From positions 1 through 32,167 of the IMG/VR virus record IMGVR_UViG_3300008963_000017: DNA of 32,167 nt, one strand, 5' to 3'. Each line of letters opens with the position of its first letter. Positions within the stretch are counted from its first letter, which is position 1. The notes under the pieces were generated by a model, which was given only the letters and a program-made list of their open reading frames with translations, had not been told where the DNA came from and did not search any database. This stretch comes from a virus. Positions 5,510-24,881 of the stretch are shown here, piece after piece. Made by a program: the position numbers and the translations under genes.

Positions 5510-8500
5510 ATGTCTATAAGCAACAGACAAAATAGACTGTTAGTATCAGAAGACTGGAAAAGAGTTTATCAATCTTTCAGAAATGCTGAATTTCAGTCGT
5601 ATGATTTCGACAACTTAAGAAGGACTATGATAAACTATCTTCGGGAAAATTATCCTGAAGATTTCAACGACTACATAGAATCTTCTGAATACCTTGCACT
5701 AATAGACATGATGGCTTTTCTAGGCCAAAATATTGCGTTTAGGATAGACCTTAATGCTAGAGAGAACTATCTAGAACTGGCAGAAAGAAGAGAATCAGTC
5801 CTAAGACTAGCAAGATTGCTAAGTTATAATCCTAAGAGGAACCAAGCTGCTAATGGTTTGATGAAAATGGATTCTGTGTCTACCACAGAATCTGTTCGCG
5901 ACTCGAATGGTATAAATCTAGCAAGCCAGTCAATTGTATGGAACGATCCTTCAAACACAAACTGGAATGAACAATTTCAAAGAGTTCTAAACGCTGCTCT
6001 TCCTAACAACGGAAAAATCGGAAATCCAGAAAAAGCAAATAGAATAAACGGAGTTCCTACAGAACAGTATAAACTGAATGGTGCTAGTGATGCTGTACCA
6101 ACATTTAGTTTCACAAAAAATGTTGACGGACGGTCTCTTTTGTTCGAAGTTGTTTCTACAAGTATTCAAGACAACGCAATCTCTGAAGAAGCGCCGCTTC
6201 CCGGCAACAATTTTGGATTTCTCTTTAGAAATGACGGACAGGGACCAGCTAGTACAAATACAGGCTATTTCTGTCACTTTAGACAAGGATCTCTTGATCT
6301 TGGAGATTTTTCTATTGCAAATCCTAGTACAAACCAAATAGCTGCGATTGACTCTACAAATATAAACAACTCAGATGTTTGGCTTTATACTTTAGATGAA
6401 AACGGCAGTGAACAAGAGTTGTGGACCAAGGTAGAAGCTGTTGAAGGCAACAATGTTATCTATAACAGCGTTTCAAATGATCAAAGAAACATCTATTCAG
6501 TGTTAACCAGGGTAGACGATAGAATTAGTCTTATTTTTGCTGATGGCACTTTTGGCAATTTACCCGAAGGCAGCTTTAGAGTGTATTATAGGACCTCGGC
6601 AAGTTCACGTATCTTGATAAAACCTAGAGACATGAGAAATATAGCTGTAAGCATACCGTATATTTCTTCTAGCGGTAAAGCCGAAACTCTCACAATTACT
6701 CTTTCGCTTAAGTATTCCGTTGACAATGCAACACCATCTGAAACAAACGAAAGCATTCGGATAAATGCACCTTCTACCTATTATACTCAAAACAGAATGA
6801 TAACAGGTGAGGATTATCAGGTTGCTCCTCTCAGTCTTAACCAAGAAATAGTAAAGGTAAAATCAGTTAACAGATCTTCTAGTGGCATTTCAAGAAACTT
6901 CGATCTGCTGGATCCAAGCGGCAAATATAGCTCTACAAATATCTTTGCAAAAGACGGTGCTTTGTATAAAGAATTTGTTGACGAAAAGATTGAGTTTTCG
7001 TTTTCTAGTCTCACCGAAATTGAAGGCATTATATTAAATCGAATAGAGCCAATTTTTGAAGACAAAAGTGTATCTAACTTTTACTTTGATCGCTTTCCTC
7101 GTGTTATTGTGCGAGACTTGAATAATACATGGCAAGAAGAAATCAATCAAACAAATTCAAATTCTGGTTATCTTATAAATGCAGGCGGAAACAGAGCAAA
7201 CATAGCAGATTTTTCCTCTTCCAATATTAAATTTGTTAAGGAAAATTCACTGTTAAAATACGAAGCACCGCAAGGTTTTCACTTCATGGATGACGGAACA
7301 CTTATGCAAGGCCCAGCTGATCATCCTGGATCTACCACAGCTATTTGGACAAAAGTTCTTATTGCAGCAAACGACGGGACAGAAACTCAGGACAGCGGAG
7401 CAGGCGCTATTGTTTTAAATGACAAAGTTCCTACAGGTGCTGTGTTAGCAGAAATTATAACACCTTTGCCTAACAGCCTTACAGATGATGTTAGAGGACA
7501 GGCAATAGACCAAATATTTTCTTTTAGAACATTTGGCATAAGATATGACAGAGACATAGGCGAGTGGCAAATTATCACAGAAAACAATTTAGATCTTACT
7601 TCTGATTTTTCTACTGGCAAAACAGGTGATACTACAGATAATAGATTAGACGCAAGCTGGTTTGTTGCATTTGAAACAAGCGGCGATAATTACACAGTTA
7701 CCTATAGGACTCTCAAATATGTTTTTGAATCTGATAAAGAAGTTAGATTCTATTATGACAGTTCTGACAATGTATTTGATGTGCCGACCGGTAAAACCAT
7801 ACAAGATACTATCAGTGTTTTGAATATCAATACCAGACCAGACAGTCGTGAACCTCTCAATCAGAATTTTGATTGGGAAATTGTAAAAGAATACAGAGAC
7901 ACACTGGGATATATTGATTCCAAAAAAATAGAAGTTTCATTTTTTGATTCAGACTCAGACGGCATAATTGATAATCCAGACATCTTTCAACAGCTGGTTC
8001 AAGAATCTGTTAATACAAAAGACAAACTGGTGTTTTTACAATCTATAAGAACAAATGACGGAGTGAATGATTTTGTTTATGTTTCATCTGAAGATCTTAA
8101 CCTGACAGTTTTTGATCAAAAAACTGACTTTGAAAGATTACCAAAAAGTCAATTTGAAGACGGAGAACTTTTCTACTTCTTGACAGAAGATATCTTTGAA
8201 GATATTAACACTGCAACCGGGACTACCCAAATCAATGCAAATTATAGAGCAAGAATAGGCAGAGACGGACTGAGATTTAGATATTTCCATTCAGCAGATC
8301 AAAATGCAAGAATTGATCCAGGAGTTTCTAACATAATTGATATTTTCTTGTTAACAAGGGGATATGATTCTGAATTTAGAGATTGGTTGAGCGGAGAACG
8401 CGACATAAAACCGCTGCCTCCTAGCAATGACAGTTTGTTTACAAGCTTTGGACAGGACCTCAATAAAATTAAATCAATCAGCGATGACATCATTTATCAT

Positions 8501-8986
8501 CCTGTAAAATATAAAGTACTATTCGGTGAAAAAGCAGAACCAGAATTGCAGGCACAATTTAAAATTGTTAAAAATCCAGAGCTAGTTATAAACGATAACG
8601 AACTAAAATCCAAAATCATAAGATCTGTCAACAGATATTTTGCACTCGATAACTGGGAATTCGGAGACAAGTTTTACTTTTCAGAGCTTGCAGCTTATGT
8701 GGTAAACGAAATAGCCCCTGAGGTAGCAAGTTTTGTAATAGTTCCTGTTGCGGGAGATGCTGTGTTTGGTTCACTATATGAAATAAAATCAGAATCAGAC
8801 GAAATTTTTATATCTGGTGCAACAGTTGCGGATATAGAAATCATAGACGAAATTACAGCAACAACCCTGCGAGCAAATGGAAATATACTTACTGAAAGAT
8901 CGGTGTCTGTTACCGGGGTAACAAGCTCAACATTATCTACAAATGCTACAAGAAATACCGGAGGCATGAATACGAATGGCTACTAG
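5510..8986 (+). CDS. 6: Baseplate wedge protein gp6-like, baseplate J family, enlarged
   Basis: The main wedge protein that would form the continuous ring of the baseplate. Residues 1-120 carry the conserved start of the marine T4-like gp6 group (DWKRVYQSFRNAEFQSYDF, IDMMAFLGQNIAFRIDLNAR, ESVLRLARLLSYNPKR). Baseplate-J-type core signals follow: FADGTFGNLPEGSFRVYYR at about 344-362 and NAPSTYYTQNRMITGEDY at about 419-436. D813, D815, D817 and D821 form a DxDxDGxxD loop like those that bind calcium. The C-terminal domain at about 1030-1125 has YFALDNWEFGDKFYFSELAA and FGSLYEIKSESDEIFISGAT. At 1158 aa it is well above T4 gp6 (660 aa), and the extra length sits mainly in the middle (about 450-1000). 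The last 11 bases overlap the giant gene. Confidence 0.88.
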   Translation: MSISNRQNRLLVSEDWKRVYQSFRNAEFQSYDFDNLRRTMINYLRENYPEDFNDYIESSEYLALIDMMAFLGQNIAFRIDLNARENYLELAERRESVLRLARLLSYNPKRNQAANGLMKMDSVSTTESVRDSNGINLASQSIVWNDPSNTNWNEQFQRVLNAALPNNGKIGNPEKANRINGVPTEQYKLNGASDAVPTFSFTKNVDGRSLLFEVVSTSIQDNAISEEAPLPGNNFGFLFRNDGQGPASTNTGYFCHFRQGSLDLGDFSIANPSTNQIAAIDSTNINNSDVWLYTLDENGSEQELWTKVEAVEGNNVIYNSVSNDQRNIYSVLTRVDDRISLIFADGTFGNLPEGSFRVYYRTSASSRILIKPRDMRNIAVSIPYISSSGKAETLTITLSLKYSVDNATPSETNESIRINAPSTYYTQNRMITGEDYQVAPLSLNQEIVKVKSVNRSSSGISRNFDLLDPSGKYSSTNIFAKDGALYKEFVDEKIEFSFSSLTEIEGIILNRIEPIFEDKSVSNFYFDRFPRVIVRDLNNTWQEEINQTNSNSGYLINAGGNRANIADFSSSNIKFVKENSLLKYEAPQGFHFMDDGTLMQGPADHPGSTTAIWTKVLIAANDGTETQDSGAGAIVLNDKVPTGAVLAEIITPLPNSLTDDVRGQAIDQIFSFRTFGIRYDRDIGEWQIITENNLDLTSDFSTGKTGDTTDNRLDASWFVAFETSGDNYTVTYRTLKYVFESDKEVRFYYDSSDNVFDVPTGKTIQDTISVLNINTRPDSREPLNQNFDWEIVKEYRDTLGYIDSKKIEVSFFDSDSDGIIDNPDIFQQLVQESVNTKDKLVFLQSIRTNDGVNDFVYVSSEDLNLTVFDQKTDFERLPKSQFEDGELFYFLTEDIFEDINTATGTTQINANYRARIGRDGLRFRYFHSADQNARIDPGVSNIIDIFLLTRGYDSEFRDWLSGERDIKPLPPSNDSLFTSFGQDLNKIKSISDDIIYHPVKYKVLFGEKAEPELQAQFKIVKNPELVINDNELKSKIIRSVNRYFALDNWEFGDKFYFSELAAYVVNEIAPEVASFVIVPVAGDAVFGSLYEIKSESDEIFISGATVADIEIIDEITATTLRANGNILTERSVSVTGVTSSTLSTNATRNTGGMNTNGY

Positions 8987-11900
8987 AGATCAAAACGATT
9001 TTCCGCTACCAGACGGCAGCGACGGAAATAGGAGAAGTGCGTTCCATCTGCCGAAATATTTTAGAACTGAAGTAAACAATAAATTTCTTGCGTCTACTTT
9101 TGATCAGCTTATGCAGCCAGGTGTTGTAGAAAAAATAAATGGATATTTTGGAAGAAAACAGTCGGCTGCTTATAGACCAGGTGATTTTTATGTAGGGGAT
9201 GTTTCTAAACAGAGAGAAGACTATCAACTCGAACCTGCAGTTGTCATAAAAGATTCTATCGACAATGTTAGTCTTTATAGAGATTATAATGATTATATAA
9301 ACCAAATTAATAACATAGGCGGAGACACTTCGGATCATTCTCTGTTAAACAGACAAGAATACTATGCTTGGGATCCTCACATTGACTGGGATAAATTTGT
9401 AAACTTTAGAGAATACTATTGGCTTCCAAACGGGCCTGACCCTGTTTCTGTTGCAGGACAGTCTTTTGATGTACAATCTGCATTCTCTGTTACTTCGCAA
9501 GACAACGGAGACAACTTTGCTTTTGTGTTCTCTCCAGACGGATTAACACAAAATCCTGAAATAGCACTTTATAGAGGAGTGGCATACAGATTCGAAATCG
9601 ATTCACCTGATATTCCTATAAGTTTTAGAACTCAACGACTTACTGCAAGAGCATGGACTCCGTTTACTTACTATACTACGGGAGAAACGGTGCTAGTTGA
9701 TTCCAAAATTTACACCGCAGTTCTAGATCATAGGTCAGGAGACGAATTTGAAGAAGACGAAGAAAAATGGAACAAGAATCCTAATATAAATTTAAGCCAA
9801 ACCATTCCTGTACAAGGTATAGAACAAGGCATTGTTGAATTTACGCTGGATCAAAACACACCCGATTTCTTATATTATGTGTCAGATATCGATATCAATG
9901 CAGGCGGTCTAGTAAAAGTGTACGATCTAGATGAAGCAGCATTCATAGATGTTGACAAGGAAATTATAGGTAAAACCTCTTACAGAACCGGACAAGGATT
10001 CGATCTTTCTAATGGCATGAAAATTGCGTTTCGAGGAAGAACTTTTCCAGAGTTTTACCAAGAAGGTTATTACTATGTTGAAGGTGTGGGAGAAGCAATA
10101 ACACTAACACCAGAATCTGAACTGATAACACCTACAGATTTTCTTGAAAACGAAATAATCGAATTTGATACAGAAGGTTATGATGTAACTCCTTATTCGA
10201 CTGCTATAGGATTTGCAAGAGAAAAAGACTATTTTACTATTAATAGATCTAGCAGAGACGGTAACCTTTGGAGCAAATACAACAGATGGTTCCACCGTGA
10301 GATAATAGAAAATGCTGCAAGTGTAAACAACACTGAACTTGTTATAGATCAATCTCAGAGAGCAACAAGACCTATTATCGAGTTCGAAGCAGGATTAAAC
10401 CTATTTAACTTCGGTACCGAGACAAAGGATTCCGTTAATCTAGTCGACGATTTTACTGCTGATGTGTTTTCCACAATAGAAGGCAGCTCGGGTTACAGTG
10501 TAGACGGAGTTCAGCTTACGCAGGGCATGCGAGTGCTATTTAACAACGATCCCGACATATTTGTGAAAGGCAAGATTTTTGAAGTAGACTTTATTAGTTT
10601 CAAAGGCGAAAGACAGATTGCTCTGCGTGAAACAGATGATGCTGTGCCGCTAACTAATCAAACTGTACTTTGCAAACAAGGGCGGACCTATAGAGGAAAG
10701 ACACTGCATTTCAACGGGGAAGAGTGGATTCTCTCACAGGAAAAAATAGATGTAAATCAGCCCCCGCTGTTTGATGTATATAATTGTGACGGAGATTCTC
10801 TCTCAGACAAAGAAGTTTATCCTTCTAGCGATTTTGCAGGCACTAAGGTATTCTCCTATAGTATGGGCAAAACGCCAAAAGACACGGAGCTTGGTATAAG
10901 TCTCGATTATAGAAATATACAAAACATCGGTGACATACTGTTTAGATTTGATTTACAGGCAGATAGTGTTACTTATTGTCCTGAAAACAGTCCGATAATT
11001 GACGAAGCAACCGGGCTTGGTTTCTTGAGAAAGTATACCTCAAGAGAAGGGTTTGAACTTTATAATGGCTGGCGCAAAGGCTACGAATTAAGCACACAAC
11101 AGGTTGTTCGTCAGTTCGAAGTAAAGCAGGAATCAAATTTTCCTATCGATGTTTACAACGAAAGCGCACTGCTAGATGATATTTCAATAAAGGTGTTTGT
11201 AAACAATAGACTACAGTTCGAAGCTGAAGATTATCAAATTACAACAGTATCAAATAATCAACTAGAAGTTCAATTTTTTGCCGAACTGCAAACCGACGAT
11301 ATTATTTTAATAAAAACTAAATCTTCTGCACCAAAAAACGAAAACGGTGTTTATGAAATTGCAAGCAATTTAGAAAGAAATCCTAAAAACGAAAATCTCG
11401 AGCTCATAACGTTGGGAGAAATTAATGACCATGTTCAAACAATTGTTGAAAACCTAGACGAATTTCAAGGCACGTATCCTGGAACCAGTAATCTAAGAGA
11501 TACAGGACTTGTAGCCAAATTCGGCAAGAGAATTATAAGACATAGTGCGCCTTTGAGCCTAGCCTTGTATCATCTAGATAACAATGCAGCAAACATAATA
11601 CATGCCTTACGATATTCTAAGAATGAATACGCAAAATTTAAACGAGATTTTGTAGAAATTTCAACAGAATTGGGATTTGAAGGACCTATAAATCAGCATT
11701 TCGAAGCTGTGATGCGACAGTATAGAAAAAACAAATCTGCTGAAGGTCCTTTTTTTGCTACCGATATGTTTGCAATTGGAGCAGCTTTAGTAAGCAATTC
11801 TGAGGTGTCATTTGAAAACGAGGTATTTTTTGCCCTATCTCAAGACTTCACACTTGAAGAACTTAGTAATAGATCTGTATTGGTTTATAAAAATGGTGAG

Positions 11901-14900
11901 CAATTACTGCATGGCTATGATTATACCTTTAACGAAGAAGGTTTTGTAGAACTGTTGGAATCTCCTAATATTCGTGATATTATCACAATTTACGAATTTG
12001 AAAGCACTAATGGTTGCTACGTGCCTGCAACTCCTACAAAACTAGGACTGTACCCTTTGTATAAACCTCAAAAATATCTTGATGATACCTATTTAGAGCC
12101 ACGCGAGGTAATCCAAGGGCATGATGGCAGCATTGTTGCAGCTTATGGTGATTTTAGAGACAATTTAATTCTTGAACTAGAAAAGAGAATATATAATAAT
12201 ATCAAAATTGATTACGATCCTGAAGTTTTTGATATTCATGATTATATTCCCTCTCGATTTAGGAATACTGGTTTAACCAAACATCAAATAGATCAATCAT
12301 TACTGCCTGATTTTATCGGTTGGACAAATCAGATAAATGCTGATTTTACTGATAACAATTTTTACGAAAGAACAAATAGTTTTACATACAATTATTCTGG
12401 CACTGCAAATATAAATGACGAAGTGTTGAACGGCTGGTGGAGAAATATCTATAAAGAAATTTTTGATACAGATCGTCCGCACACTCATCCTTGGGAAATG
12501 CTTGGCTTTTCCGAAAAGCCCGAATGGTGGAATGAACAGTATGGACCTGCTCCTTATACCCGAAACAACCTTCTGTTATGGGAAGATCTAGCAGGTGGTA
12601 TACTGCGCAAGCCCGGTGAAGGCATAAAGATTCTTGATAAGTATATAAGGCCCAAGCTAAATGCATTTATACCTGTAGACGAAACAGGAAAATTGATTCC
12701 GCCTCTTAAAACAAATTATGTTACACAGTATAACAGCTATCAACTAGACGGAAGATTTGTTTTCGGCGACCATGCACCAGTCGAAACTGCTTGGAGACGC
12801 AGTGCAGAATATCCATTTGCGCTAATTTCTTCTCTAGTACAAAATCAGCCAAACAGAGTATTCGCAACGGCGTTTGACAGAAGCAGAATATTTAGGTCAC
12901 CTGTGGGAGAACTTTCCTACAAGTATTCTAATGTACAGTTTCGATTAAGAGATATTGAATTTCCAAACAGACAGACCGACGAAGAAATTGTTTATACCAG
13001 CGGACTTGTAAATTACATAAGAGATTATGTTGATTCAAATTCTGCATACGAAACCTACAAGAATGATCTTAGAAGAATTGAAATCCAAATAGGTTTCAAA
13101 CTGGCCGGCTTTTCAAATAAAGAAAAGTTCAAATTGTTATTGGATTCTCGAACGCCTCTTAATGAAGGCAACGTTTTTGTTCCAGAAGAGAATTACAAAA
13201 TTTTTCTTAACACAAGCTCTCCCACACGAAATATCTTTTACAGTGGTGTGTTTGTAGAAAAAATACCTAGTGGTTTTGTAATTCGTGGATATGACGAATA
13301 TCAACCTTATTTTGAATATTACGAACCTATTAGAAAACAGTCAGACAGCACTATAAACATCGGTGGTATAACAGAACCAACAATCACATGGAGCGAAAGG
13401 CAATTTATAAGCAAAGGTACTGTTGTTCAATTCCGATCAAGATTTTACAGAGCAATAGAATCTCATACTAGTACTTTCGCATTTGAAAGTGAAAAGTTTA
13501 TTGTGTTACCAGACATACCTCGAGAAGGAGGTAGAGACATTATCCTGAGAAGTTCTTTTGATAGGATCGAGTCTGTAAAACTTGATTACGGTACAGTGGT
13601 AGAAAGCATACAGGATGTTATTGATTTCCTGCTTGGGTACGGTGATTGGCTTGAAGACCAAGGATTTGTGTTTGATCACTATGATCAGGACAGTTTAGCT
13701 GTATCTAACTGGAAGACTTCAGCTAAAGAGTTTACTTTTTGGACACTGCAAAACTGGAGTAGCGGCGCTGTTATCTCTCTTTCACCGGGCGCATTCGAAC
13801 TTAAATTTAGAAGAGAATTTGCAATGGTAGACAACATCTATGATACATTTTATGGATATTCTCTTTTCAAGGTTGACGGTAAACCTCTAAATCCAGAATA
13901 TGTTTCCTTGTCTCGCGAAAGCGAAAATGAATTTAAAATTCGTTCAAAAAACACAGAAGATGGTATATTTGGTGTAAGACTTTCTTTAGTTCAAAAAGAA
14001 CATGCCGTAATAATTGATAATAGAACAGATTTTGGCGATATTCTGTATGATCAAGTGCCTGGTTATAGACAAGAAAGAATAAAAACGCTAGGTTATAGAA
14101 CAACCAACTGGAATGGATCTCTCAATATTCCAGGATTTATATTTGATGATGCTAGAGTTGAAGAATGGGAGCGGTGGAAAGATTACTCAATTGGTGATTT
14201 GGTAAGATATAAAGAATTTTTCTATTCAGCAAAAAATAAAATTGCGGGCACTGAAGTATTTGAAGCAGATAATTGGCAATTGCTTGATGGTAGGCCAGAA
14301 CCAGAGTTGTTGCCAAACTTTGATTATCGTGCCAGTCAATTTGCAGACTTTTATGATCTTGATTCTGACAATTTCGACGCCGAACAGCAGAGATTTGCAC
14401 AGCATTTGATAGGGTATCAGAATAGAGATTATCTAGCGAACATTATAAATGATGATGTGAGCCAATACAAGTTTTATCAAGGATTTATACAAGACAAAGG
14501 CACAACAAATGCTCTTACCAAGCTGTTCGATCCGCTGGGGTCGCAAAACCGTGAAAGTCTAGATTTTTATGAAGAATGGGCAATCAAAGCAGGACAGTAC
14601 GGTGCTGTGCAAGGCTTTGAAGAAGTAGAATTTTTAATCGACGAGTTGAAAATAAAAACAGACCCTCAATCGTTTGAATTAGTAAACTCTATTGATTCTG
14701 AATACACAGGAAGAGTAGTCAAGATATTACCGTCAGAGACCTATTTAAAACCAGACAATTATGATCATAGCATTCCGATTCCTGTTAGCATTACAGACAG
14801 TTTTGTAGAAAACAGCGGATATGTAACCAGGCAAGAAGTTTCCTTTATAGTCGATAGATATCAAGATATTCTTGATATTGCTGCAGATAGTTTGGAACTA

Positions 14901-17900
14901 TCTAGCAAAATTTGGGTAGGTAATCTAGACGAAAGCTGGCAAGTTTACACTCTTATAGAAACTGATTTAGTTGTAGAATTAATAGAAAAGATAGATGAAT
15001 CTTTTGCACTAGAATTATCTAGCTCAGTTTTTGATATAAAAGTAGATGATATTATCTGTTTGTTTTTTACTACAAACGATGCAAACTACAGAGTTGTGGA
15101 TATAGAATCCAACCGTATTATTGTGGCCGGCCCAGACAATCTTGAAATTGAAGAAAATTATGCAAAAATCTTTCAATATGTTCCTTCTAGGTTTGAAAGC
15201 GTTAACAAAATTAACGATGCGATATATTTGATCGAAGATGGCGTAGAAAACTTTTACATTGATCAAGACTTAAACAATCGCTGGAAAGTTCTTGAAAGAG
15301 ACAGCTCACTTGTAGCAAAACAGGAAATGCAAAATCCAAATTCTGTTTTGAATTCATTTGGTTCAAGTTTTGCTGTAAATGATAGAAACACAGTGTTAGC
15401 TGTAGGAAGTCCGGGCGACGGAAACGGCAAAGTTTTTGTTTATACTAGACCTAGTGCATCAGGTAATTATAGACTAGCACAGACTTTAACTCTCCAGGAT
15501 TTTATAACAGACGAAAATCCAAAATTTGGTGCTGCAGTGTCAGTATCAGATGATGGAGAGTTTATATTTGTTGGATCACCTGAAGCTTCTAATGTTGTAA
15601 GTCAGTACCAAGGAAAATTTGACGAGGATCGCGGTTATAGTCAAGGAGACGTGGTTCAGTTTAGAGATAACCTTTGGAAAGCCACAACAGATATTCAGAA
15701 ATTTTTAGATAGTGTTCCCCTTGGGTCTTGGAATTCTTATCTTCAAAACCTAATTGAAAAAGACTTAATCGGCCAAGACGACGAAACTATAGAAGTTTTA
15801 CTTGCAGGAAATTATCCGCTATTATCAATAGGAAACCGTGCAAAAGCAGCTACGACCGAAAACCTTAATGCATCGTATGCCGACGGAGTGTTAACTGCAA
15901 ATGTAGACGGCGTGTTTACAGTCGACGGTGTCTCCGAATGGAGACTAGGAGAATCAGTAATAGTCAAAGATCAAGACGATAAAACGATAAACGGATTATA
16001 TTTGATAGCTGATATAGGATCTATATTTAATCCATGGAAGCTTGAAAGAGCAAGTATTATGAACGAGAGCTCTGAAGTTCCAAATTTATTCGTTTTAGTA
16101 AAACAGGGTAATACAAACTTCAATACTGGTTGGATATTCTCTGTTGATAACCAAAATAGTTTCGTTCTAGACGAAGACAATATCGAGGTTTTAAGCTCAC
16201 TTGGAGAAGGTCAACTTAACGATGCCGATCACTTTCTGCTAAGAGCCCCGAGAGACATGTTTCAAGGATCTAGTATAGGCGACGAAATTACTGTCAAGTG
16301 GAATACAAAATCATATGGTTATCAAAATCAAGAGTTAGGTAACACACAACCATTTGACGGTGACATACGAGGATTTGATAATTCTACACTTACAGGCACT
16401 TTAACAATTGCTGATAAAATTGATAGTATATTGTCTGTTCCTGACGCTACTGCTATTCCGGAAGTAGGACAACTTATTGAAACCCCCGAAGCAGTAGGCA
16501 CCATTGCCTATATCTATAACCTAGCATCCTCTTTATCAATCTATATTAAAGACCAAAACGGCGAATATCCTCGAGAAGGTACTGCCATTACTGAGATTGG
16601 AGAATTTATTGGTAGATTTGAACGAATAGAACCAGTAGAAATTACTGCAGATTTTACAGACACGTTTGGCGGTTTTTGGAAAATAGATGTAGGCGAAAAC
16701 TATATTGTAGATGGCAAGAACAGCGATGCAGCAAGAGGCTTAGTGATACATGACGTAATACCGAGTGGTGACACCGATCAAAATAGGTTCTTCTACAATA
16801 TACTAGATTTCGAACCACCTACAAATACAGGACCAGATGATCGTTACAGTGAAATTACAACGCTTAGTTATTCTGGTCTACCTGGCCCGTATGAACAACA
16901 GAACTTCCAACTTGAATCTAATCTATTTGTTATAAGAGCACCGAAGCCTCTCACAGACGGACTACAAGTAGGAGACGAGGTTGATGTATTCTACAATTTC
17001 TTGCCAAATTACGAACAAGGATTAATTAAGGATATTAGTCAAACAGGTCTGTCTGCAGAGGATATTAACAAAACACAAACCGTAGAATATGTTTGGGACG
17101 GATTTATTGATCTAGAGATACAAAACTTTGAAGCAGGACGACCTGTAGAACCTTATGATATATTTTCAGAATTTGTTCAAGTAGATCCAGTCACGGAACA
17201 GCCAATTCCTCTTGTCATACGAGACAGAGAAGAAGGCGGAACAGCAGAAGTAGTATTTTACCAAAAATTTAATGCTGACGATATTCGGATCTATATCCAA
17301 AATATTCAAGGCGATTTTGGCAGAGGCAGGTTAAGTGGCGAACCAAGAACAATTGAATTTTTGGCTGACGGATCTGGCGACAGCTTTTATGATCCAGATA
17401 AAGGATTTAGAAGAATAGGCCAGTCAGTGACACGAAGCTTTCCAAATGCAAGCGAAAACATTGGAAAACTTCTGGTGTTCCAACGACAAATTCCTGTTCG
17501 GCTAAGCAGTGTTACAGATTCAATTTTACTTGAAGCAGAATATTGGTTCTATTATGAGGAAACAGTTTTAGGATCTTCTAGACCTGCTAATTTACCATCT
17601 ACTTTCAACGTCGATTGGGAAAAAACTTTTGCAACTGAAGCGTCAGCCGGCGGAGATCCTAGTGGTTTAGAAAAGGAGGGCTTACTGAGCATATTCAGAA
17701 GAACCGGCAAAATTGAATGGTCTACTTTCGGTAACTACATAGTTCCTGACAGAAAAGATAACAATCGTTTTGGTAGCGACCTTAGATTTGCTAATATGAA
17801 CGGTTTATACAAGCTTCTTGTAAAAGCAGAGGAAGAAAAAACTCTACAATCTCAGTCCTATGGAAAAATTTATACCTTTAAAAATGGATCAGAAAACGGT

Positions 17901-20900
17901 CTTGAATATAATTGGGATATAGGAATTGACAAAAATTATGCAGGAGAGTATATAGAAAATGCGTCAACAAATGATGTAATTTATACCGATGGTAACATAG
18001 TTTACCATGATAATAAACTTTATCAGGCACTTACAAATGTATCTGCCAAACCTTTTGAAAAATCAGAATGGCAAGAATTAGAATCTCCGATAGATTATCT
18101 AGGATATGTTCCTAACGATTCAGATCTTACACTAGATTCATTGTCTGGTCAGATTGACTTTAATGGATTAGAAATTTTTGCAGACGCTTTTGATTTGTCG
18201 AAAAATGGCGAAATAATTGTAATTTCTACGAAGTACATAGATAGAAATAGTGTACAAATTTATAGGAATGTCGACGGCGTTTATGTAAAAACGCAAACTC
18301 TTGCAGAGTTTGATACAGACGAACAGTTTGGATACGACGTTGCCGTGAACAGCACAGGCAGGTTTATTGCAATTTCAGCACCTCTTAATAGTAATAATCT
18401 CTCCGACCAAGGAAAAGTATATCTTTACAAACAAGTATCAGGCGAATTTTTACTAACACAAGAGCTAGTAGGACCTACTCGTGATATTGGTGAACAGTTT
18501 GGCACAGAGATTGCGTTCGATAAAGATCTTCTAGCAGTTACATCAAAAAATTCAAGTTCCGTAATAAAAACAACATTTGATCAAGGCAGAACAACATTTG
18601 ATCAGAAATTTACAAATTTTCTTGATAATGAACAAAACACAGGAGTGGTTAGATTATATCAGATAGTTGATAACAATGCTCTTTATTTCCAAAGTATTGA
18701 TTACGACAATAAAACCAAATTCTTTGGTAAGACACTAGAAGTTAAAAATGACAAGGTTTACACTGCTTTACCTAGATATAATCTCGATGCCAACTCGGGT
18801 GGTATTTTACTTGAATTTGCAAAACAATCATCTGGAGAATTTTGGAGCACAAAAAAACAACTAAAAGACACTATAGATATAAACAAAATCAAGCAGATTC
18901 TTTTATATGACACCGATACCGAAGAGTTAATTCAATATCTTGACTACATAGACCCGCTGCAAGGAAAAATTGCAGGTGTAGCGGATCAGGAGATTGATTT
19001 CAAAATGTATAATGATCCTGCTACTTATAATACAGGTACAGCAGCTAAAATTAATAAAACAAACAGTTGGGGCAAAAAACAGGTAGGAAAAGTTTGGTGG
19101 GACCTATCCAATGCACGATTTAGGAATCCTTATCAAGAATCTGTAACATACTCTGCTAACAACTGGAACAAACTTTTTTCAAATAAAAATTCAATTGATG
19201 TGTACGAATGGGTCGAGAGTGACTTAACTCCTAACGAATGGGACGAAATTTCTGGCTCAGAGCGAGGCTTTACTAGAGGAATAACAGGAACAACTAGATA
19301 CGGCAATAATGCTTATGTTATCAAACGTGTGTATGATGAGATAAATGACACCATAAATGAAAAATACTACTATTGGGTAAGAGATAAAAGCACAATTCCT
19401 GTACAAGAAAGTAGATCAACTTCATCTAGAGATATTGCAAGATTAATTGAAGATCCTTTCGGTCAAGGATATCCATTTATATCTTTGATTTCTCCAAACG
19501 CATTTGCTTTGTACAACTGCAATAGTATTGCAAAAAATCGCAGTGTTGCTCTTAATATTCAGTATTACACCATTGACAATCAAGATGCTAATGTTCACAG
19601 GGAATACAAGATTCTAACAGAAAATCTTGAGTCAAGCATACCAGATGAAACATTAGAAAGAAAATGGTTCGATAGCCTTGTAGGATTCGACCATGCACGC
19701 CGTCCTGTTCCTGATACCTCTTTAAATATAAAACAGAAGTATGGAACACTAGATAATCCTAGACAGGGATGGTTTATAAATCGAATCGAAGCTCTAAAAC
19801 AGGTTATAGAAAGAATAAACAGAATTCTCATTGACAATCTCATAATCGACGAAAAAAACATTTCACGATTGACTGAGCAGGACATGCCTCCTCTTGAATC
19901 AATCAATTATTATGACACAACAGTTGAATCCGAAATTGACCTTGATATTATAGGGGTTGCTAGGTCAAGACGAGCACGCCTTAAACCAATTATTGATGCA
20001 GGTCAAATAGTTGAAGTTAACATCTTGGATGCAGGAAGATCTTACCGGCGTCCGCCAACAGTAGAAATATTAGGCACAGGCACAGGTGCTCAAATTACTA
20101 CAGAAATTGACAGTCAAGGTAGAGTAATCAATGCTATCATAGATAATTCTGGCGAATATTATTCTCAAAATACTTCTATAGTAGTTAGACCGTTTGCTGT
20201 TCTTGTAGAAAGTGATAGTACTATTGCCGGAAAGTGGGCAATATACCAGCGAAACAACCTTAACAATCAATGGATTAGACAAGCCAGTCAGGCATTTGAT
20301 GTTCAGCGTTATTGGGAGTATAAAGATTGGTACTCCGAGGGCTACAATCGAAACACAGACATTAACTTCTTAATAGACGAGAGCTACGAGCTTTTTGCGT
20401 TAAATGATAGAATAGGTGATGTAGTCAAAATAAGGTCAATAAATTCCGGCGGTTGGTTACTGTTAGAAAAAATAGATAATCAAAAAACAGTTGATTATAC
20501 TATAAATTACAAAACTATAGGCAGACAAAACGGAACAATTCAATTCTTGCCTAGACTTTACAGCACAGAAGAAAACCTTGCTGGATATGATTTAACTAAT
20601 TTTGATTCTGTAAATTTTGATGCTTTACCTATCACAGAAACAAGAATAATTCTTGAAACTGTTAGAGACAACATTTTCATAAATGAGCTTGCAGTTGAGT
20701 ACAATAGATTGTTCTTTGCTAGCCTTCGCTATGTGTTCGCTGAACAAAACAATGTAGATTGGGCATTTAAAACCAGTTTTGTAAAAGCACAGCATAATGT
20801 AGGCGAACTTAAGCAGAAACTTACATTTAGTAATGACAATTTGCCTTCTTATGAAAAGTATGTGCGTGAAATAAAACCATACAAAACCAAGATTAGAGAA

Positions 20901-23900
20901 TATCTTTCTAATTATGAAAATAGAGAAAACAGTGCGTCTGTTATTACTGATTTTGATTTACCTCCTAGATTTGTTGAAACAGAAAAGAAAATAAAACCAT
21001 TCAAAACCAGCATACGAGACAATGCATTAGTTACAACGGCTCAGGATATCGATAATGATCCTTACAAAAACTGGAAAGACAGTTTTACATCTGAAATTAT
21101 TAAAATCGATGTAGTCAACTCGGGCAAAGGTTATACTACAGCTCCTATTGTACAAATTACTGGCGGAGGAGGAAAAGGTGCAACAGCGTCTTGTTCTCTA
21201 GGACCAAACGGGACTGTTTCGCAAATTGTAGTAACAGATCCGGGTCACGGTTATACTTCTTCACCTTCGATCTCGATTCTTGGCTCTTTAAGTGAAAATG
21301 GAACAGAAGCAAGGGCAGTTGCAAAAATTGGAAATTCTCGTGTACGATCAACGAGCATGAAAATAAAATTTGACAGATTATCCGGTAGTTTTGAATTTGT
21401 AAATTTAAACACTATAGAAGAATTTAAAGGAAGTGGCTTTAAACAAGAATTCCATCTTAAATGGCCATTAGATTTGAGATCAAATCAAATCTCTGTTTTT
21501 ATTAATAATAACCCTGTTCCTCGAGGTAGGTTTAGTTATGAAAATCGTCTTGACACTTCTCTAAACTATGACAGATTTCTTGGTAAAATTTTCTTTGAGG
21601 CTGCTCCTGCGGCCGGTGCTACTATAAGAATAGAATACAAGAAAGATATAGATATTCTTTCAGCTGCCGACAGAATAAATTTCGAATATAATCCGAAAGA
21701 AGGTCAATTAGGAAATTATATCGGTCAGCTAATGGAGGGTGTTGATTACGGCGGTGTCGAAATTACTGGATTTGATTTTTCTGGTCAGACAGGATGGGAT
21801 TCACAAGGTTGGTTTGCGCAGCCTTGGGATGTCTTTGACACTGAGTTCGAAGATGAAATTATAGAACTTGACGGTAGTACTATATCTGTAGAATTATCAC
21901 AGCCTCTAGAATCAAATGTTGTCTACAATATCTATAGAGTAGCACGTGACATTAACAGCAGAATAGTTAGCAATACTAGAATGGATGATCCTAATTTTGG
22001 TACAGCGGAGCAAACAAACGCTAATGCAGTGTGTGAAAGCATAATTGGAGACGGGTCAACTACTATTGTAGAACTTGATGAATTAAACATTCCGACTACT
22101 GCTGACAATAGTGAAGACAGAATCACGCTTATTATTCGTAAAATTACCAGTGATGGATCTTTTATTCCTGACCCTGATTCTTACGATACATCTATCGTAG
22201 GGGGAGACTTAAATTATGCAAATGCAAAAGGAATTTCTTCAGAAGAAATAGAAATCGACGGCGCCGGATTTGTAACTCCGACAACATCTAAAGGACCTGA
22301 AGAAATAGTACCAGGACAATTAGTTGACACAGTAGATATTCGTGTATACGAGTCACCAGTCGGCGGCGGTAGTCCAATAGAGCTTAGAAACTATGTTGCA
22401 GATGGCACACAAACTGTGTTCTATATAGGAAACATTCCGGTTAATGAAACCGGTGTGTTTGTTAAAATAGATTATTCGTTACAGGACAATACTGATTATA
22501 TTATCGATTATGTCAACGGCTCTGTGATATTTTCACAAGCACCTCAAGAAAATTCAGTTGTTAATATTGTTAACCTTGGAAACAGTGCCTCAAATATAAC
22601 CAGCATAGAAGAATTTAGTGGCGACGGCAGCACAGGCGAGTTCCTTCTTCCTGTTCGCTACAACGACGAAATAGAAATATTTGCAACTGTAGACGGTAAA
22701 GAAAAAGGTTTTATTGTTTTTGAATCAGACGATTCGTACGAGATAGCAGGTTCTACAGTGGTAAAATTTGCTACTCCTCCGGCCAATCAAAGTGCAATTA
22801 ATCTGTTAATCTCTACCAAAGGTATAGAGGCATCAAATATTAGCACAGTAAGAGTCGATGAGTTTATTGCAGACGGTTCTAGCACACAGTTTACTTTGGA
22901 GAATGATATTTTCTCTCAACAACCTGCAGTTAACAATGTATTGGCTTTTGTTAATAATAGTTTATTAAGCTCTGTTTACAACAAACAGTTTGTGATCGAA
23001 GAAAACAAATTGAGTTATCAGCTCGATGTTGCTCAAATACCATCAGATACTACTGATCCTAGATATATAGAAGTTTATCTTAATGGCAACCTGCTTTCTT
23101 ACTTGTCAGATTACACATTTGATCCTAGTGATATACCCGGCGTTGTAAAAGGAAATCAAATTAATTTAAGCCAAGGGTTGGCAGAGCCCGGCGACATATT
23201 AGATGTGTATGTCATGAACACAGGTGATTACAGATTTGGCTTTATTGACGAAACAGGCGAATTTGTAAGACAGCGAGGCGAAGATAGCACATTACCTGTA
23301 TTAAATTTAGATTCAACTTACAATGCAGGTGATAAGATAAAGGTATACAGTTTTTTGAATCATGACACTCAAAAGATCGAAAGACAATCTGTAACTGTAA
23401 ATTACAATCCTAATATTATAGAAGGAACTCCTCAGTATTTTGATAATCAAAAATTAAACAAAGGTGTAATTGATTTAAGAACTTCGGCAGTGAACAGTTC
23501 TGCAGTATGGGTTGTAAAAAACGGCAATCTCCTAAACGGCAATATTGATTACACAGTTATCAATTCAAATAAAACAGTCAAGCTTTCTGGCATCCCTCAA
23601 AACGGAGATGAAATTGAAATTATACATTTTTCTGCTACCCCGATTACAGAAGCGTTCGGATGGAGACAATTTAAAGATATTCTTAATAGAACTCATTATA
23701 AAAGGTTAGGCAAATCTTATGCTATTGTGCAGGATTTTAGATGGTTTGACAAAGAAATTATTGTAGAAAACGCTGATGATTTACCAGAGCCGAAATATAA
23801 CGCAAAACAGCCTGGCATAATATTCATTGAAGGCGAAAGAATTGAATATTTTGTAAAACAGGACAATGTGCTTACTCAGCTGCGCAGAGGCACGCTAGGC

Positions 23901-24881
23901 ACTGGCGTAAAAGAGCTGTACAAATCAGGCACAATATTTGTAGAACAAGGCAGTTCAAATAACCTACCGTATCAAGACTCTAATCAAACTATAACAGTAG
24001 ACTCTGGAGGGTATAGACAAGGAACTGTGGAGTATGAAAACAGTATAGGAATGTCAATTGATGATATCCAATACGATTTTAACAACAACAGTGCATTTCC
24101 GCTAGGCGGACAAGTTGCTACAGTAACAGGATCTGGATTCAGAGAAAATGTCGTTGTATTTGTTGGAGAGACAGAGTGTGATACAACATACATTGATACT
24201 TCCACACTGCAATTTATTACACCAGAATCACCTGTAGGATCATATGATTTAATAGTTGTTAATCCTGCTACAACAGAGCCTCTCAATATTTCGAGAACAA
24301 GCGTTGTGTCGCCTGGCTTGGTTAAATATCTTCAAGTATTACTGCCCTTCGAGCCTCAGCCAAATCCAGATTCTGAAGAAGGTTGGTATAAAGAAACTGA
24401 AGAAATTAGTGTTACCGAACTGCAGATAGGTAGAGGTTATGTTATTAACACTGTAGGTGACACTGATTTTGTCAGTCTTGGTGCACCGGACAACCGTGTT
24501 GGAACAGAATTTATTGCAACAAGAGCAGGAGCAGGTGCCGGAACAGTAATAAATTATACAAGTATTCCGTACGAATACTGGGAAGCACAGGATATAGAAG
24601 TATTTGTAGGCGGCCGAAGATTAAGAAAAGCACCGTATACTGTTTATAACTATGAAGCACTTGATTCTCCTGAAGGAGACAAAACGCAGGAAGCAGAATA
24701 TGCAGTAAACAAGAACATAGGCGCTTATGTAAGACTGACAGAGGCGCCGCCTCCCGGGGTTAAGGTTACTATAGTTAGAAAAACAGGCACACTTTGGTCA
24801 GATTCGGGAACACCTTTAGCACAGTCTGATAGTCAAGTTGCAAGATTTTTGCTAGCGCAGACAACTGAATTGCCACGATAA
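8976..24881 (+). CDS. Giant 5301-aa modular virion structural protein, probable baseplate periphery/wedge
   Basis: One open frame of 15.9 kb starting inside the gp6-like gene (GGAGG at 8960-8964, ATG at 8976). The first part is that of large marine T4-like virion proteins: HLPKYFRTEVNNKFLAST (24-41), QPGVVEKINGYFGR, WDPHIDWDKFVNFREYYWLP (about 132-151), INRSSRDGNLWSKYNRWFHR (about 421-440). Further family landmarks are PATPTKLGLYPLYKP and VIQGHDGSIVAAYGDFRD (about 1016-1066), HTHPWEMLGFSEKPEWWNEQ (about 1170), RFAQHLIGYQNRDYLANII (about 1807), VYEWVES (about 3409), KPYKTKIREY (3967-3976) and GQLMEGVDYGGVEITGFDF (about 4250). Inserted among these are seven FG-type propeller blades, five small aromatic modules, GxGY repeats, beta-sandwich modules, an IPT/TIG-like domain and a C-terminal SDSQVARFLLAQTTELP tail. 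No signal peptide or membrane segment was seen. It follows gp6 where T4 has gp7 (1032 aa), so a wedge/periphery role is inferred. It could also act in host binding. Virion protein: confident; exact role: not. Confidence 0.8.
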   Translation: MATRDQNDFPLPDGSDGNRRSAFHLPKYFRTEVNNKFLASTFDQLMQPGVVEKINGYFGRKQSAAYRPGDFYVGDVSKQREDYQLEPAVVIKDSIDNVSLYRDYNDYINQINNIGGDTSDHSLLNRQEYYAWDPHIDWDKFVNFREYYWLPNGPDPVSVAGQSFDVQSAFSVTSQDNGDNFAFVFSPDGLTQNPEIALYRGVAYRFEIDSPDIPISFRTQRLTARAWTPFTYYTTGETVLVDSKIYTAVLDHRSGDEFEEDEEKWNKNPNINLSQTIPVQGIEQGIVEFTLDQNTPDFLYYVSDIDINAGGLVKVYDLDEAAFIDVDKEIIGKTSYRTGQGFDLSNGMKIAFRGRTFPEFYQEGYYYVEGVGEAITLTPESELITPTDFLENEIIEFDTEGYDVTPYSTAIGFAREKDYFTINRSSRDGNLWSKYNRWFHREIIENAASVNNTELVIDQSQRATRPIIEFEAGLNLFNFGTETKDSVNLVDDFTADVFSTIEGSSGYSVDGVQLTQGMRVLFNNDPDIFVKGKIFEVDFISFKGERQIALRETDDAVPLTNQTVLCKQGRTYRGKTLHFNGEEWILSQEKIDVNQPPLFDVYNCDGDSLSDKEVYPSSDFAGTKVFSYSMGKTPKDTELGISLDYRNIQNIGDILFRFDLQADSVTYCPENSPIIDEATGLGFLRKYTSREGFELYNGWRKGYELSTQQVVRQFEVKQESNFPIDVYNESALLDDISIKVFVNNRLQFEAEDYQITTVSNNQLEVQFFAELQTDDIILIKTKSSAPKNENGVYEIASNLERNPKNENLELITLGEINDHVQTIVENLDEFQGTYPGTSNLRDTGLVAKFGKRIIRHSAPLSLALYHLDNNAANIIHALRYSKNEYAKFKRDFVEISTELGFEGPINQHFEAVMRQYRKNKSAEGPFFATDMFAIGAALVSNSEVSFENEVFFALSQDFTLEELSNRSVLVYKNGEQLLHGYDYTFNEEGFVELLESPNIRDIITIYEFESTNGCYVPATPTKLGLYPLYKPQKYLDDTYLEPREVIQGHDGSIVAAYGDFRDNLILELEKRIYNNIKIDYDPEVFDIHDYIPSRFRNTGLTKHQIDQSLLPDFIGWTNQINADFTDNNFYERTNSFTYNYSGTANINDEVLNGWWRNIYKEIFDTDRPHTHPWEMLGFSEKPEWWNEQYGPAPYTRNNLLLWEDLAGGILRKPGEGIKILDKYIRPKLNAFIPVDETGKLIPPLKTNYVTQYNSYQLDGRFVFGDHAPVETAWRRSAEYPFALISSLVQNQPNRVFATAFDRSRIFRSPVGELSYKYSNVQFRLRDIEFPNRQTDEEIVYTSGLVNYIRDYVDSNSAYETYKNDLRRIEIQIGFKLAGFSNKEKFKLLLDSRTPLNEGNVFVPEENYKIFLNTSSPTRNIFYSGVFVEKIPSGFVIRGYDEYQPYFEYYEPIRKQSDSTINIGGITEPTITWSERQFISKGTVVQFRSRFYRAIESHTSTFAFESEKFIVLPDIPREGGRDIILRSSFDRIESVKLDYGTVVESIQDVIDFLLGYGDWLEDQGFVFDHYDQDSLAVSNWKTSAKEFTFWTLQNWSSGAVISLSPGAFELKFRREFAMVDNIYDTFYGYSLFKVDGKPLNPEYVSLSRESENEFKIRSKNTEDGIFGVRLSLVQKEHAVIIDNRTDFGDILYDQVPGYRQERIKTLGYRTTNWNGSLNIPGFIFDDARVEEWERWKDYSIGDLVRYKEFFYSAKNKIAGTEVFEADNWQLLDGRPEPELLPNFDYRASQFADFYDLDSDNFDAEQQRFAQHLIGYQNRDYLANIINDDVSQYKFYQGFIQDKGTTNALTKLFDPLGSQNRESLDFYEEWAIKAGQYGAVQGFEEVEFLIDELKIKTDPQSFELVNSIDSEYTGRVVKILPSETYLKPDNYDHSIPIPVSITDSFVENSGYVTRQEVSFIVDRYQDILDIAADSLELSSKIWVGNLDESWQVYTLIETDLVVELIEKIDESFALELSSSVFDIKVDDIICLFFTTNDANYRVVDIESNRIIVAGPDNLEIEENYAKIFQYVPSRFESVNKINDAIYLIEDGVENFYIDQDLNNRWKVLERDSSLVAKQEMQNPNSVLNSFGSSFAVNDRNTVLAVGSPGDGNGKVFVYTRPSASGNYRLAQTLTLQDFITDENPKFGAAVSVSDDGEFIFVGSPEASNVVSQYQGKFDEDRGYSQGDVVQFRDNLWKATTDIQKFLDSVPLGSWNSYLQNLIEKDLIGQDDETIEVLLAGNYPLLSIGNRAKAATTENLNASYADGVLTANVDGVFTVDGVSEWRLGESVIVKDQDDKTINGLYLIADIGSIFNPWKLERASIMNESSEVPNLFVLVKQGNTNFNTGWIFSVDNQNSFVLDEDNIEVLSSLGEGQLNDADHFLLRAPRDMFQGSSIGDEITVKWNTKSYGYQNQELGNTQPFDGDIRGFDNSTLTGTLTIADKIDSILSVPDATAIPEVGQLIETPEAVGTIAYIYNLASSLSIYIKDQNGEYPREGTAITEIGEFIGRFERIEPVEITADFTDTFGGFWKIDVGENYIVDGKNSDAARGLVIHDVIPSGDTDQNRFFYNILDFEPPTNTGPDDRYSEITTLSYSGLPGPYEQQNFQLESNLFVIRAPKPLTDGLQVGDEVDVFYNFLPNYEQGLIKDISQTGLSAEDINKTQTVEYVWDGFIDLEIQNFEAGRPVEPYDIFSEFVQVDPVTEQPIPLVIRDREEGGTAEVVFYQKFNADDIRIYIQNIQGDFGRGRLSGEPRTIEFLADGSGDSFYDPDKGFRRIGQSVTRSFPNASENIGKLLVFQRQIPVRLSSVTDSILLEAEYWFYYEETVLGSSRPANLPSTFNVDWEKTFATEASAGGDPSGLEKEGLLSIFRRTGKIEWSTFGNYIVPDRKDNNRFGSDLRFANMNGLYKLLVKAEEEKTLQSQSYGKIYTFKNGSENGLEYNWDIGIDKNYAGEYIENASTNDVIYTDGNIVYHDNKLYQALTNVSAKPFEKSEWQELESPIDYLGYVPNDSDLTLDSLSGQIDFNGLEIFADAFDLSKNGEIIVISTKYIDRNSVQIYRNVDGVYVKTQTLAEFDTDEQFGYDVAVNSTGRFIAISAPLNSNNLSDQGKVYLYKQVSGEFLLTQELVGPTRDIGEQFGTEIAFDKDLLAVTSKNSSSVIKTTFDQGRTTFDQKFTNFLDNEQNTGVVRLYQIVDNNALYFQSIDYDNKTKFFGKTLEVKNDKVYTALPRYNLDANSGGILLEFAKQSSGEFWSTKKQLKDTIDINKIKQILLYDTDTEELIQYLDYIDPLQGKIAGVADQEIDFKMYNDPATYNTGTAAKINKTNSWGKKQVGKVWWDLSNARFRNPYQESVTYSANNWNKLFSNKNSIDVYEWVESDLTPNEWDEISGSERGFTRGITGTTRYGNNAYVIKRVYDEINDTINEKYYYWVRDKSTIPVQESRSTSSRDIARLIEDPFGQGYPFISLISPNAFALYNCNSIAKNRSVALNIQYYTIDNQDANVHREYKILTENLESSIPDETLERKWFDSLVGFDHARRPVPDTSLNIKQKYGTLDNPRQGWFINRIEALKQVIERINRILIDNLIIDEKNISRLTEQDMPPLESINYYDTTVESEIDLDIIGVARSRRARLKPIIDAGQIVEVNILDAGRSYRRPPTVEILGTGTGAQITTEIDSQGRVINAIIDNSGEYYSQNTSIVVRPFAVLVESDSTIAGKWAIYQRNNLNNQWIRQASQAFDVQRYWEYKDWYSEGYNRNTDINFLIDESYELFALNDRIGDVVKIRSINSGGWLLLEKIDNQKTVDYTINYKTIGRQNGTIQFLPRLYSTEENLAGYDLTNFDSVNFDALPITETRIILETVRDNIFINELAVEYNRLFFASLRYVFAEQNNVDWAFKTSFVKAQHNVGELKQKLTFSNDNLPSYEKYVREIKPYKTKIREYLSNYENRENSASVITDFDLPPRFVETEKKIKPFKTSIRDNALVTTAQDIDNDPYKNWKDSFTSEIIKIDVVNSGKGYTTAPIVQITGGGGKGATASCSLGPNGTVSQIVVTDPGHGYTSSPSISILGSLSENGTEARAVAKIGNSRVRSTSMKIKFDRLSGSFEFVNLNTIEEFKGSGFKQEFHLKWPLDLRSNQISVFINNNPVPRGRFSYENRLDTSLNYDRFLGKIFFEAAPAAGATIRIEYKKDIDILSAADRINFEYNPKEGQLGNYIGQLMEGVDYGGVEITGFDFSGQTGWDSQGWFAQPWDVFDTEFEDEIIELDGSTISVELSQPLESNVVYNIYRVARDINSRIVSNTRMDDPNFGTAEQTNANAVCESIIGDGSTTIVELDELNIPTTADNSEDRITLIIRKITSDGSFIPDPDSYDTSIVGGDLNYANAKGISSEEIEIDGAGFVTPTTSKGPEEIVPGQLVDTVDIRVYESPVGGGSPIELRNYVADGTQTVFYIGNIPVNETGVFVKIDYSLQDNTDYIIDYVNGSVIFSQAPQENSVVNIVNLGNSASNITSIEEFSGDGSTGEFLLPVRYNDEIEIFATVDGKEKGFIVFESDDSYEIAGSTVVKFATPPANQSAINLLISTKGIEASNISTVRVDEFIADGSSTQFTLENDIFSQQPAVNNVLAFVNNSLLSSVYNKQFVIEENKLSYQLDVAQIPSDTTDPRYIEVYLNGNLLSYLSDYTFDPSDIPGVVKGNQINLSQGLAEPGDILDVYVMNTGDYRFGFIDETGEFVRQRGEDSTLPVLNLDSTYNAGDKIKVYSFLNHDTQKIERQSVTVNYNPNIIEGTPQYFDNQKLNKGVIDLRTSAVNSSAVWVVKNGNLLNGNIDYTVINSNKTVKLSGIPQNGDEIEIIHFSATPITEAFGWRQFKDILNRTHYKRLGKSYAIVQDFRWFDKEIIVENADDLPEPKYNAKQPGIIFIEGERIEYFVKQDNVLTQLRRGTLGTGVKELYKSGTIFVEQGSSNNLPYQDSNQTITVDSGGYRQGTVEYENSIGMSIDDIQYDFNNNSAFPLGGQVATVTGSGFRENVVVFVGETECDTTYIDTSTLQFITPESPVGSYDLIVVNPATTEPLNISRTSVVSPGLVKYLQVLLPFEPQPNPDSEEGWYKETEEISVTELQIGRGYVINTVGDTDFVSLGAPDNRVGTEFIATRAGAGAGTVINYTSIPYEYWEAQDIEVFVGGRRLRKAPYTVYNYEALDSPEGDKTQEAEYAVNKNIGAYVRLTEAPPPGVKVTIVRKTGTLWSDSGTPLAQSDSQVARFLLAQTTELPR
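9045..9435 (+). other. Conserved N-terminal domain of the giant protein
   Basis: Residues about 24-153 of the 5301-aa protein. Aromatic- and Asn-rich blocks HLPKYFRTEVNNKFLAST, QPGVVEKINGYFGR and HIDWDKFVNFREYYWLP are the most family-like part of the protein. As the first folded piece made after gp6, it is the best candidate for the attachment point to the baseplate wedge; that is inference from position. Confidence 0.5.
9654..9780 (+). repeat. Aromatic CBM5/12-like module 1 in giant protein
   Basis: Residues 227-268. W227, then YYTTGETVLVDSKIYTAV, then an acidic stretch and a closing W265. The G-x-x-V, aromatic-x-A and final-W pattern resembles the small chitin/cellulose-binding modules of families 5 and 12. 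Four more copies occur in this protein. Binding to a sugar polymer is inference. Confidence 0.45.
13389..13515 (+). repeat. Aromatic CBM5/12-like module 2 in giant protein
   Basis: Residues 1472-1513. W1472, then FISKGTVVQFRSRFYRAIES, then FESEKFIVL. It has the same G-x-x-V and Y-x-A core as the other copies, but the closing position is FIVL rather than W, so this copy is the most divergent. Confidence 0.4.
14166..14292 (+). repeat. Aromatic CBM5/12-like module 3 in giant protein
   Basis: Residues 1731-1772. WERWKDYSIGDLVRYKEFFY, then S-A, FEADNW and QLLDG. This is a clean copy of the GD-x-V, Y-x-A, closing W-x-L pattern. It lies just before the conserved HLIGYQNRDYLANI region. Confidence 0.5.
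15609..15740 (+). repeat. Aromatic CBM5/12-like module 4, at the start of the propeller insertion
   Basis: Residues about 2212-2255. GYSQGDVVQFRDNLWKAT, then LGSWNSYL. It follows directly on the second propeller blade and so begins the long insertion that splits the propeller. The pattern is GD-x-V, W-x-A, closing W. Confidence 0.5.
15840..16200 (+). other. Phage tail 'KAATTENL...DGV' module within the giant protein
   Basis: Residues about 2289-2408. The order KAATTENLNASYADGVLTAN, VDGVSEWRLGESVIVKDQ, NGLYLI, WKLERA, LFVLVKQGNTNFNTGW matches a stand-alone module that recurs in tail fibre and tail proteins of unrelated phages. It sits inside the propeller insertion and looks like a separately acquired piece. 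Confidence 0.5.
17970..18083 (+). repeat. Aromatic CBM5/12-like module 5, between propeller blades 3 and 4
   Basis: Residues about 2999-3036. NDVIYTDGNIVYHDNKLYQA, then FEKSEWQELES. It has the same Y-x-A and closing W-x-x-L pattern as the other copies. It interrupts the propeller between blades 3 and 4. Confidence 0.45.
18570..18604 (+). repeat. Short tandem duplication inside the giant gene
   Basis: The 14 bases ACAACATTTGATCA occur twice, at 18570-18583 and 18591-18604, offset by 21 bases (seven codons) so the frame is kept. The product reads TTFDQGRTTFDQK. It lies in a loop of propeller blade 6. Confidence 0.7.
20007..20193 (+). repeat. GxGY-xxPxVxI repeat pair, first copy
   Basis: Residues about 3678-3740. 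AGRSYRRPPTVEI followed by a Gly/Thr-rich turn, then INAIIDNSGEYYSQNTSIVV. This is a two-unit beta-repeat with the form 'strand, GxxY, P-x-V-x-I'. A cleaner copy occurs about 1.1 kb later at 21096-21284. Confidence 0.5.
20868..21020 (+). repeat. Partial 120-base duplication (KPYKT/KPFKT) in the giant gene
   Basis: EIKPYKTKIREY at residues 3965-3976 is followed, exactly 40 residues later, by KIKPFKTSIRD at 4005-4015. At DNA level ATAAAACCAT occurs at 20871 and again at 20991, each followed by a CAAAACCA block. The first copy is the one conserved across the family; the second looks like a local duplication. Confidence 0.6.
21096..21284 (+). repeat. GxGY-xxPxVxI repeat pair, second copy
   Basis: Residues about 4041-4103. 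NSGKGYTTAPIVQITGGGG, then a turn, then DPGHGYTSSPSISILG. This clear two-unit beta-repeat has the same form as the pair at 20007-20193, and the spacing inside the unit is the same. Confidence 0.6.
21415..23640 (+). repeat. Series of beta-sandwich-like modules (GDGSTxxF...xNG) near the C-terminus
   Basis: Residues about 4147-4889. Units of the form 'F-x-G-D-G-S-x-x-x-F-x-L, V-x-V-N-G, DY, I-x-F-x-x-P, I-x-I' recur: EFKGSGFKQEFHL, SIIGDGSTTIVEL, NYVADGTQTVFYI, EFSGDGSTGEFLL, EFIADGSSTQFTL, then the later halves only (YLNGNLLSYLSDYTF and VVKNGNLLNGNIDYTV). They read as stacked beta-sandwich domains, such as those in long adhesins and fibres. The conserved GQLMEGVDYGGVEITGFDF block sits between the first two units. 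Confidence 0.5.
23718..23972 (+). other. GERIEY/QLRRGTLGTG module of the giant protein
   Basis: Residues about 4915-4999. NADDLPEPKYNAKQPGIIFI, then EGERIEYF, LTQLRRGTLGTGVKEL and GTIFVEQGSSNNLPY. This block is strongly conserved among large virion proteins of marine T4-like phages as far as I can recall it. Its function is unknown. Confidence 0.5.
24111..24266 (+). other. IPT/TIG-like Ig domain in the giant protein
   Basis: Residues about 5046-5098. VATVTGSGFRENVVVFVGET, then TLQFITPESPVGSYDLIVVN. The G-S-G-F start, V-F-V-G turn, P-E-S/G-S-Y-D-L-x-V-x-N end is the usual IPT/TIG pattern of Ig-like domains found in adhesins and phage tail proteins. Confidence 0.65.
24402..24552 (+). other. 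GRGYxI...GDTDFxxxGA module of the giant protein
   Basis: Residues about 5143-5193. LQIGRGYVINTVGDTDFVSL followed by GAPDNRVGTEFIATRAGAGA. This short module recurs in tail proteins of many marine phages. It precedes the family-typical C-terminal tail. Confidence 0.45.

Follow-up and report, generated by a model that had tools for sequence, protein, structure and literature searches.

T4 and type VI secretion systems build their baseplates from wedges in which a single gp7 (T4) or TssG connects two copies of gp6 or TssF by way of a helix bundle and a trifurcation unit (PMC6300606). The T4 wedge initiator gp7 has 1032 aa. In cyanophages, the protein annotated as gp7 (phrog_2885) reaches 5195 aa in P-SSM2 (PSSM2_111) and 4878 aa in Sf-CH8 (SfCH8_62), and its gene follows gp25 and gp6. 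Both phages also carry a second giant gene (~2470-2510 aa) two genes after gp7 (Sf-CH8, L024:18696-26102; P-SSM2, L265:20244-27764).

A single gene of >3000 aa directly downstream of gp6 is likewise found in jumbo phages with a phrog_10938 protein, and the gene described here is of the same kind. The cultured orthologues comprise those of Phosso (4555 aa), Atu_ph07 (4449 aa), PA5oct (3857 aa), Vibrio phage 2.275.O (3771 aa), PHA46 (3342 aa), GAP32 (3341 aa), RaK2 (3326 aa), 121Q (3323 aa), XacN1 (3313 aa) and RAS14 (3138 aa). The orthologue lies directly 3' of gp6 in Phosso, Atu_ph07, PA5oct, RaK2, 121Q, GAP32, Hallingskeid, PHA46 and Vibrio 2.275.O. The PA5oct orthologue, gp355, is listed as detected in the virion by ESI-MS/MS, according to the record annotation only, and PHROGs assigns the family to 'head and packaging', not to tail. 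In main-text passages of the papers on Atu_ph07, MIJ3, PA5oct and RaK2, the gene is not discussed by name. In Salicola phage SCTP-2, the 3807-aa orthologue (L004:5627-14917) is preceded by a 3096-aa giant ORF, not by gp6, whose homologue is far away, near 231-235 kb. In Salmonella phage SD-1_S14 (L012:8521-18468), the giant gene is divided into three CDS, while its 121Q-type close relatives are intact; the split is most simply explained by sequencing frameshifts.

The window analysed here, a 32,167-bp contig of an uncultured myophage, is an entire virus record from a metagenome collection; the features given below up to position 25516 are on its plus strand. The giant gene (8976-24881) runs from an ATG start to a TAA stop over 5301 codons with zero internal stops (translation table 11), and its predicted product has a mass of 601 kDa and a pI of 4.5. 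Its start overlaps the stop end of the gp6-like gene by 11 bp, and a GGAGG at 8960-8964, 11 nt 5' of the ATG, is a candidate ribosome-binding site. No tandem repeats were found.

The giant gene is embedded in a baseplate cluster. A gp53-like small baseplate wedge subunit (829-1131, phrog_7145) is followed by a gp5-like hub/spike protein (3384-4994, phrog_13211), a gp25-like wedge protein (5013-5456, PF04965 and phrog_261) and a 1158-aa gp6-like wedge protein (5510-8986, phrog_10646 and phrog_219), the immediate upstream partner of the giant. Downstream lie a 203-aa conserved neighbour (24905-25516, phrog_11259), which follows the giant in relatives too, and fibre genes. This order agrees with gp6-gp7 of T4 and gp25-gp6-gp7-gp8 of P-SSM2. 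The hub protein showed weak OB-fold (PF04717) and VgrG-like (DUF2345, PF10106) matches; a Pfam lysozyme domain, as in T4 gp5 and RaK2 gp078, was not found. The three fibre-like genes (25519-27570, 27571-29472 and 29495-31459) are ~29% identical over their N-terminal 250-330 residues, with the common consensus ...GRNY..YGE...ENF..L.ENF....GQLWY.T..., and are therefore paralogues; only the first carries a Collar domain.

Using tblastn, the giant protein matched 57-61 records of cultured phages at 23-33% identity, nearly all of them from RaK2-, PA5oct- and Atu_ph07-like jumbo phages. The two protein halves matched phrog_10938 with E-values of 1.2e-272 and 7.2e-81, and the profile covered residues 737-1728. 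The initial annotation was right in placing a virion protein at the gp7 position.

Scans of viral and genome contigs with the plain protein returned no relatives, whereas an alignment of the segment holding a KGT motif (see below) did find them. With residues ~1770-1900 as the query, 571 relatives were found in viral contigs, and with residues 3270-4037, 589; 80 of each were fetched, some contigs being common to both sets. The frame was closed at both ends in 43 and 46 loci of these two overlapping sets. All closed single ORFs but one encode 4451-5583 aa, and they occur in independent contigs with the same two neighbours. The exception (L090) has 3680 aa and a stop 9 bases short of the contig end, so that its short length is probably an edge effect. 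A gp6 relative was located upstream in 116 of the fetched loci and a relative of the 203-aa gene downstream in 113. In uncultured phages of 484-595 kb with gp6-like matches, only ordinary-sized genes adjoin gp6. The initial annotation had named uniform full-length similarity to equally long proteins as evidence against its proposal, and such similarity does exist: 27 complete relatives aligned with the window protein at 41-51% identity, with 80-95% of the positions covered. Moreover, compared with three relatives (L036, L031 and L029), substitutions were most frequent at codon position 3, followed by 1 and then 2, in every 500-codon block. Because of this coding pattern in every block and the closed single ORFs in independent contigs, an assembly artefact is excluded, and 8976-24881 is a single real gene, as had been proposed from its uninterrupted frame.

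Such a gene occurs at the same spot in hundreds of uncultured relatives and dozens of cultured giant phages, which makes the giant an unremarkable representative of a known, poorly understood family. Although it is indeed far longer than T4 gp7, as first pointed out, its 5301 aa are no record and not exceptional for the position, considering P-SSM2, Sf-CH8, Phosso and uncultured relatives of up to 5583 aa. A phage structural profile, phrog_701, extends over 6136 positions.

Pairwise and multiple alignments established a colinear core of four blocks, which allowed the core to be separated from the insertions as the initial annotation had suggested. Block 1 (residues 19-165; 9030-9470) is common to all cultured jumbo relatives at 28-42% identity, and block 2 (residues 328-1925; 9957-14750), which includes the phrog_10938 region, is the best conserved; blocks 3 and 4 comprise residues 3270-3625 (18783-19850) and 3770-4037 (20283-21086). 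Conservation with the cultured jumbo phages extends from residue 19 to ~4037; PA5oct has a further conserved patch at 4870-4978. These phages share the four blocks and the giant single gene after gp6 with the window, but their proteins are shorter (3138-4555 vs 5301 aa) and carry other modules in the insert and at the C-terminus.

Length varies mainly in an insert at residues 1926-3269 (14751-18782) and in a C-terminal extension at residues 4038-5301 (21087-24878). The insert comprises 1344 aa in the window and ~1480 in Phosso and Atu_ph07, but only 298 in PA5oct and ~190 in RaK2-type phages; in one sub-clade of the uncultured relatives, no more than roughly half of it is present. In XacN1 and RAS14, the extra length lies within the first core instead (2384 vs 1907 aa). 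In the alignment of the uncultured relatives, conservation of the core far exceeds that of the insert with its modules, and the final ~260 residues of the protein are conserved mainly among these relatives. Since the size differences fall into discrete blocks around a colinear core, growth by insertion, as initially proposed, appears from these alignments to be a fair description in part, albeit for a family in which such variation was known before.

Several modules were recognised. A CBM5/12-like carbohydrate-binding module at residues 226-256 (9651-9743, PF02839) scored above the cut-off with the whole half-protein as the query and below it with a single segment; the block holding it is missing in RaK2-type relatives. 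A second CBM5/12 fold was found in the structure model at residues ~1729-1771 (14160-14288, pLDDT ~90), matching chitin-binding domains and a baseplate chain of a contractile injection system. The insert contains a weak FG-GAP-type repeat at residues 2127-2156 (15354-15443, PF14312, E 0.013) and a further one at residues 3114-3151 (18315-18428, PF14312, E 4.6e-6). The C-terminal extension begins with a beta domain (21087-21311, phrog_460, E 3.5e-20) also present in head-closure (Hc2) proteins and cyanophage gp7, and includes an IPT/TIG immunoglobulin-like domain at residues 5038-5098 (24087-24269, PF01833, E 4.9e-9). These are presumably ordinary phage-tail modules with a surface-binding or structural role.

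The relation to gp7 itself is only hinted at, by a possibly shared helix motif. A full-length profile comparison of the T4 gp7 family with the whole giant family gave no match (hhalign probability <1%), and T4 gp7 is five times smaller. A match between T4 gp7 and the cyanophage giants was obtained at the motif FYxxKGxxxSxxxLF (93.6% probability). In the window protein, a helical segment (14343-14555) carries KGT/KGS at residue 1841, which is invariant in 37/37 aligned family members, and is a candidate gp6-binding element of the Tri2/gp7 type that T4 gp7, also encoded after gp6, may share. When a profile of the gp7/cyanophage-gp7 motif was compared with 148 windows, the two KGT-holding segments ranked 1st and 2nd (scores of 25.0 and 24.3 vs 17.1 for the next), but with a probability of only 21-26%. 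The profile scored in no other ORF of the window, single-sequence searches did not show the motif match, and Pfam and PHROG scans of the segment revealed no gp7 or P2 gpI family. The cyanophage gp7 proteins resemble the giant in size class, in position after gp25-gp6 and possibly in a KGT/KGI-type helix motif, although their motif lies near the N-terminus and not at residue 1841. In the comparison with these cyanophage giants, of the kind advised at the outset, blastp gave only short module matches, including a beta module common to Sf-CH8 gp7 and the giant (E 1e-6), and no full-length similarity.

In the AlphaFold model of residues 1490-1925, confidence was high only at the CBM and its flanking parts; it fell below 50 in the KGT helices, which might be as expected if these helices fold only with gp6. 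The model of residues 700-1480 was better (pLDDT 82.7, pTM 0.79), and its strong matches were predicted viral proteins of its own family, for example, that of Atu_ph07 (TM 0.69). Neither segment matched a solved structure at E <= 0.001. Weak local fold matches to fibre and tail-tip proteins were also seen.

Considering the position after gp25 and gp6, the phrog_10938 match, the synteny, the virion annotation in PA5oct, the KGT motif and the CBM5/12, FG-GAP and TIG modules, the giant is probably a baseplate-wedge protein at the gp7 position, from a large uncultured myophage that is a relative of the jumbo phages RaK2, PA5oct and Atu_ph07. Counting against this reading are the missing full-length gp7 match, the low probability of the KGT match, the missing solved-structure match, the PHROGs label and the separate gp6 of SCTP-2. 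By analogy with T4 gp7 and TssG, each of six wedges would contain two copies of gp6 joined by one copy of the giant. Its conserved core would build the wedge, and its beta-rich and carbohydrate-binding inserts would form the outer baseplate, holding fibres and touching the host surface. It is conceivable, though doubtful, that the N-terminal ~1900-residue core is a baseplate-scaffold fold absent from the PDB, that one chain replaces T4 gp7, gp8, gp10 and others, and that the cyanophage giants arose from a different gp7.

The sugar-binding and other surface modules, the fibre and tail-tip fold matches and the undetectable full-length gp7 homology would also suit a protein of the baseplate periphery or fibre network that binds host surface sugars, with another protein as the true gp7 partner of gp6. 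Such an arrangement seems unlikely, as the giant directly follows gp6 in nearly all relatives, no other window ORF responds to the KGT profile, and the core is much better conserved than the insert with its modules. We give considerably less weight to translation of the whole chain followed by cleavage into several virion proteins by a phage protease, so that no 5301-aa chain would be present in the particle. The chain is very long, and the authors of the RaK2 paper propose processing of capsid protein by a phage protease; on the other hand, our Pfam scans found no self-cleaving domain, and the passages of that paper on gel positions report agreement with the predicted mass for several tail proteins, among which the giant is not named. 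Fusion of several genes during assembly has next to no probability: split records such as that of SD-1_S14 exist, but the closed single ORFs in many independent contigs and the intact genes of cultured phages already refute it.

For several abundant groups of large phages, single-chain baseplate giants of 3-5.6 thousand residues are the norm, yet the core segments 700-1480 and 1490-1925 modelled here matched no solved structure. The present contig adds one more example, together with a clean map of core versus inserts.
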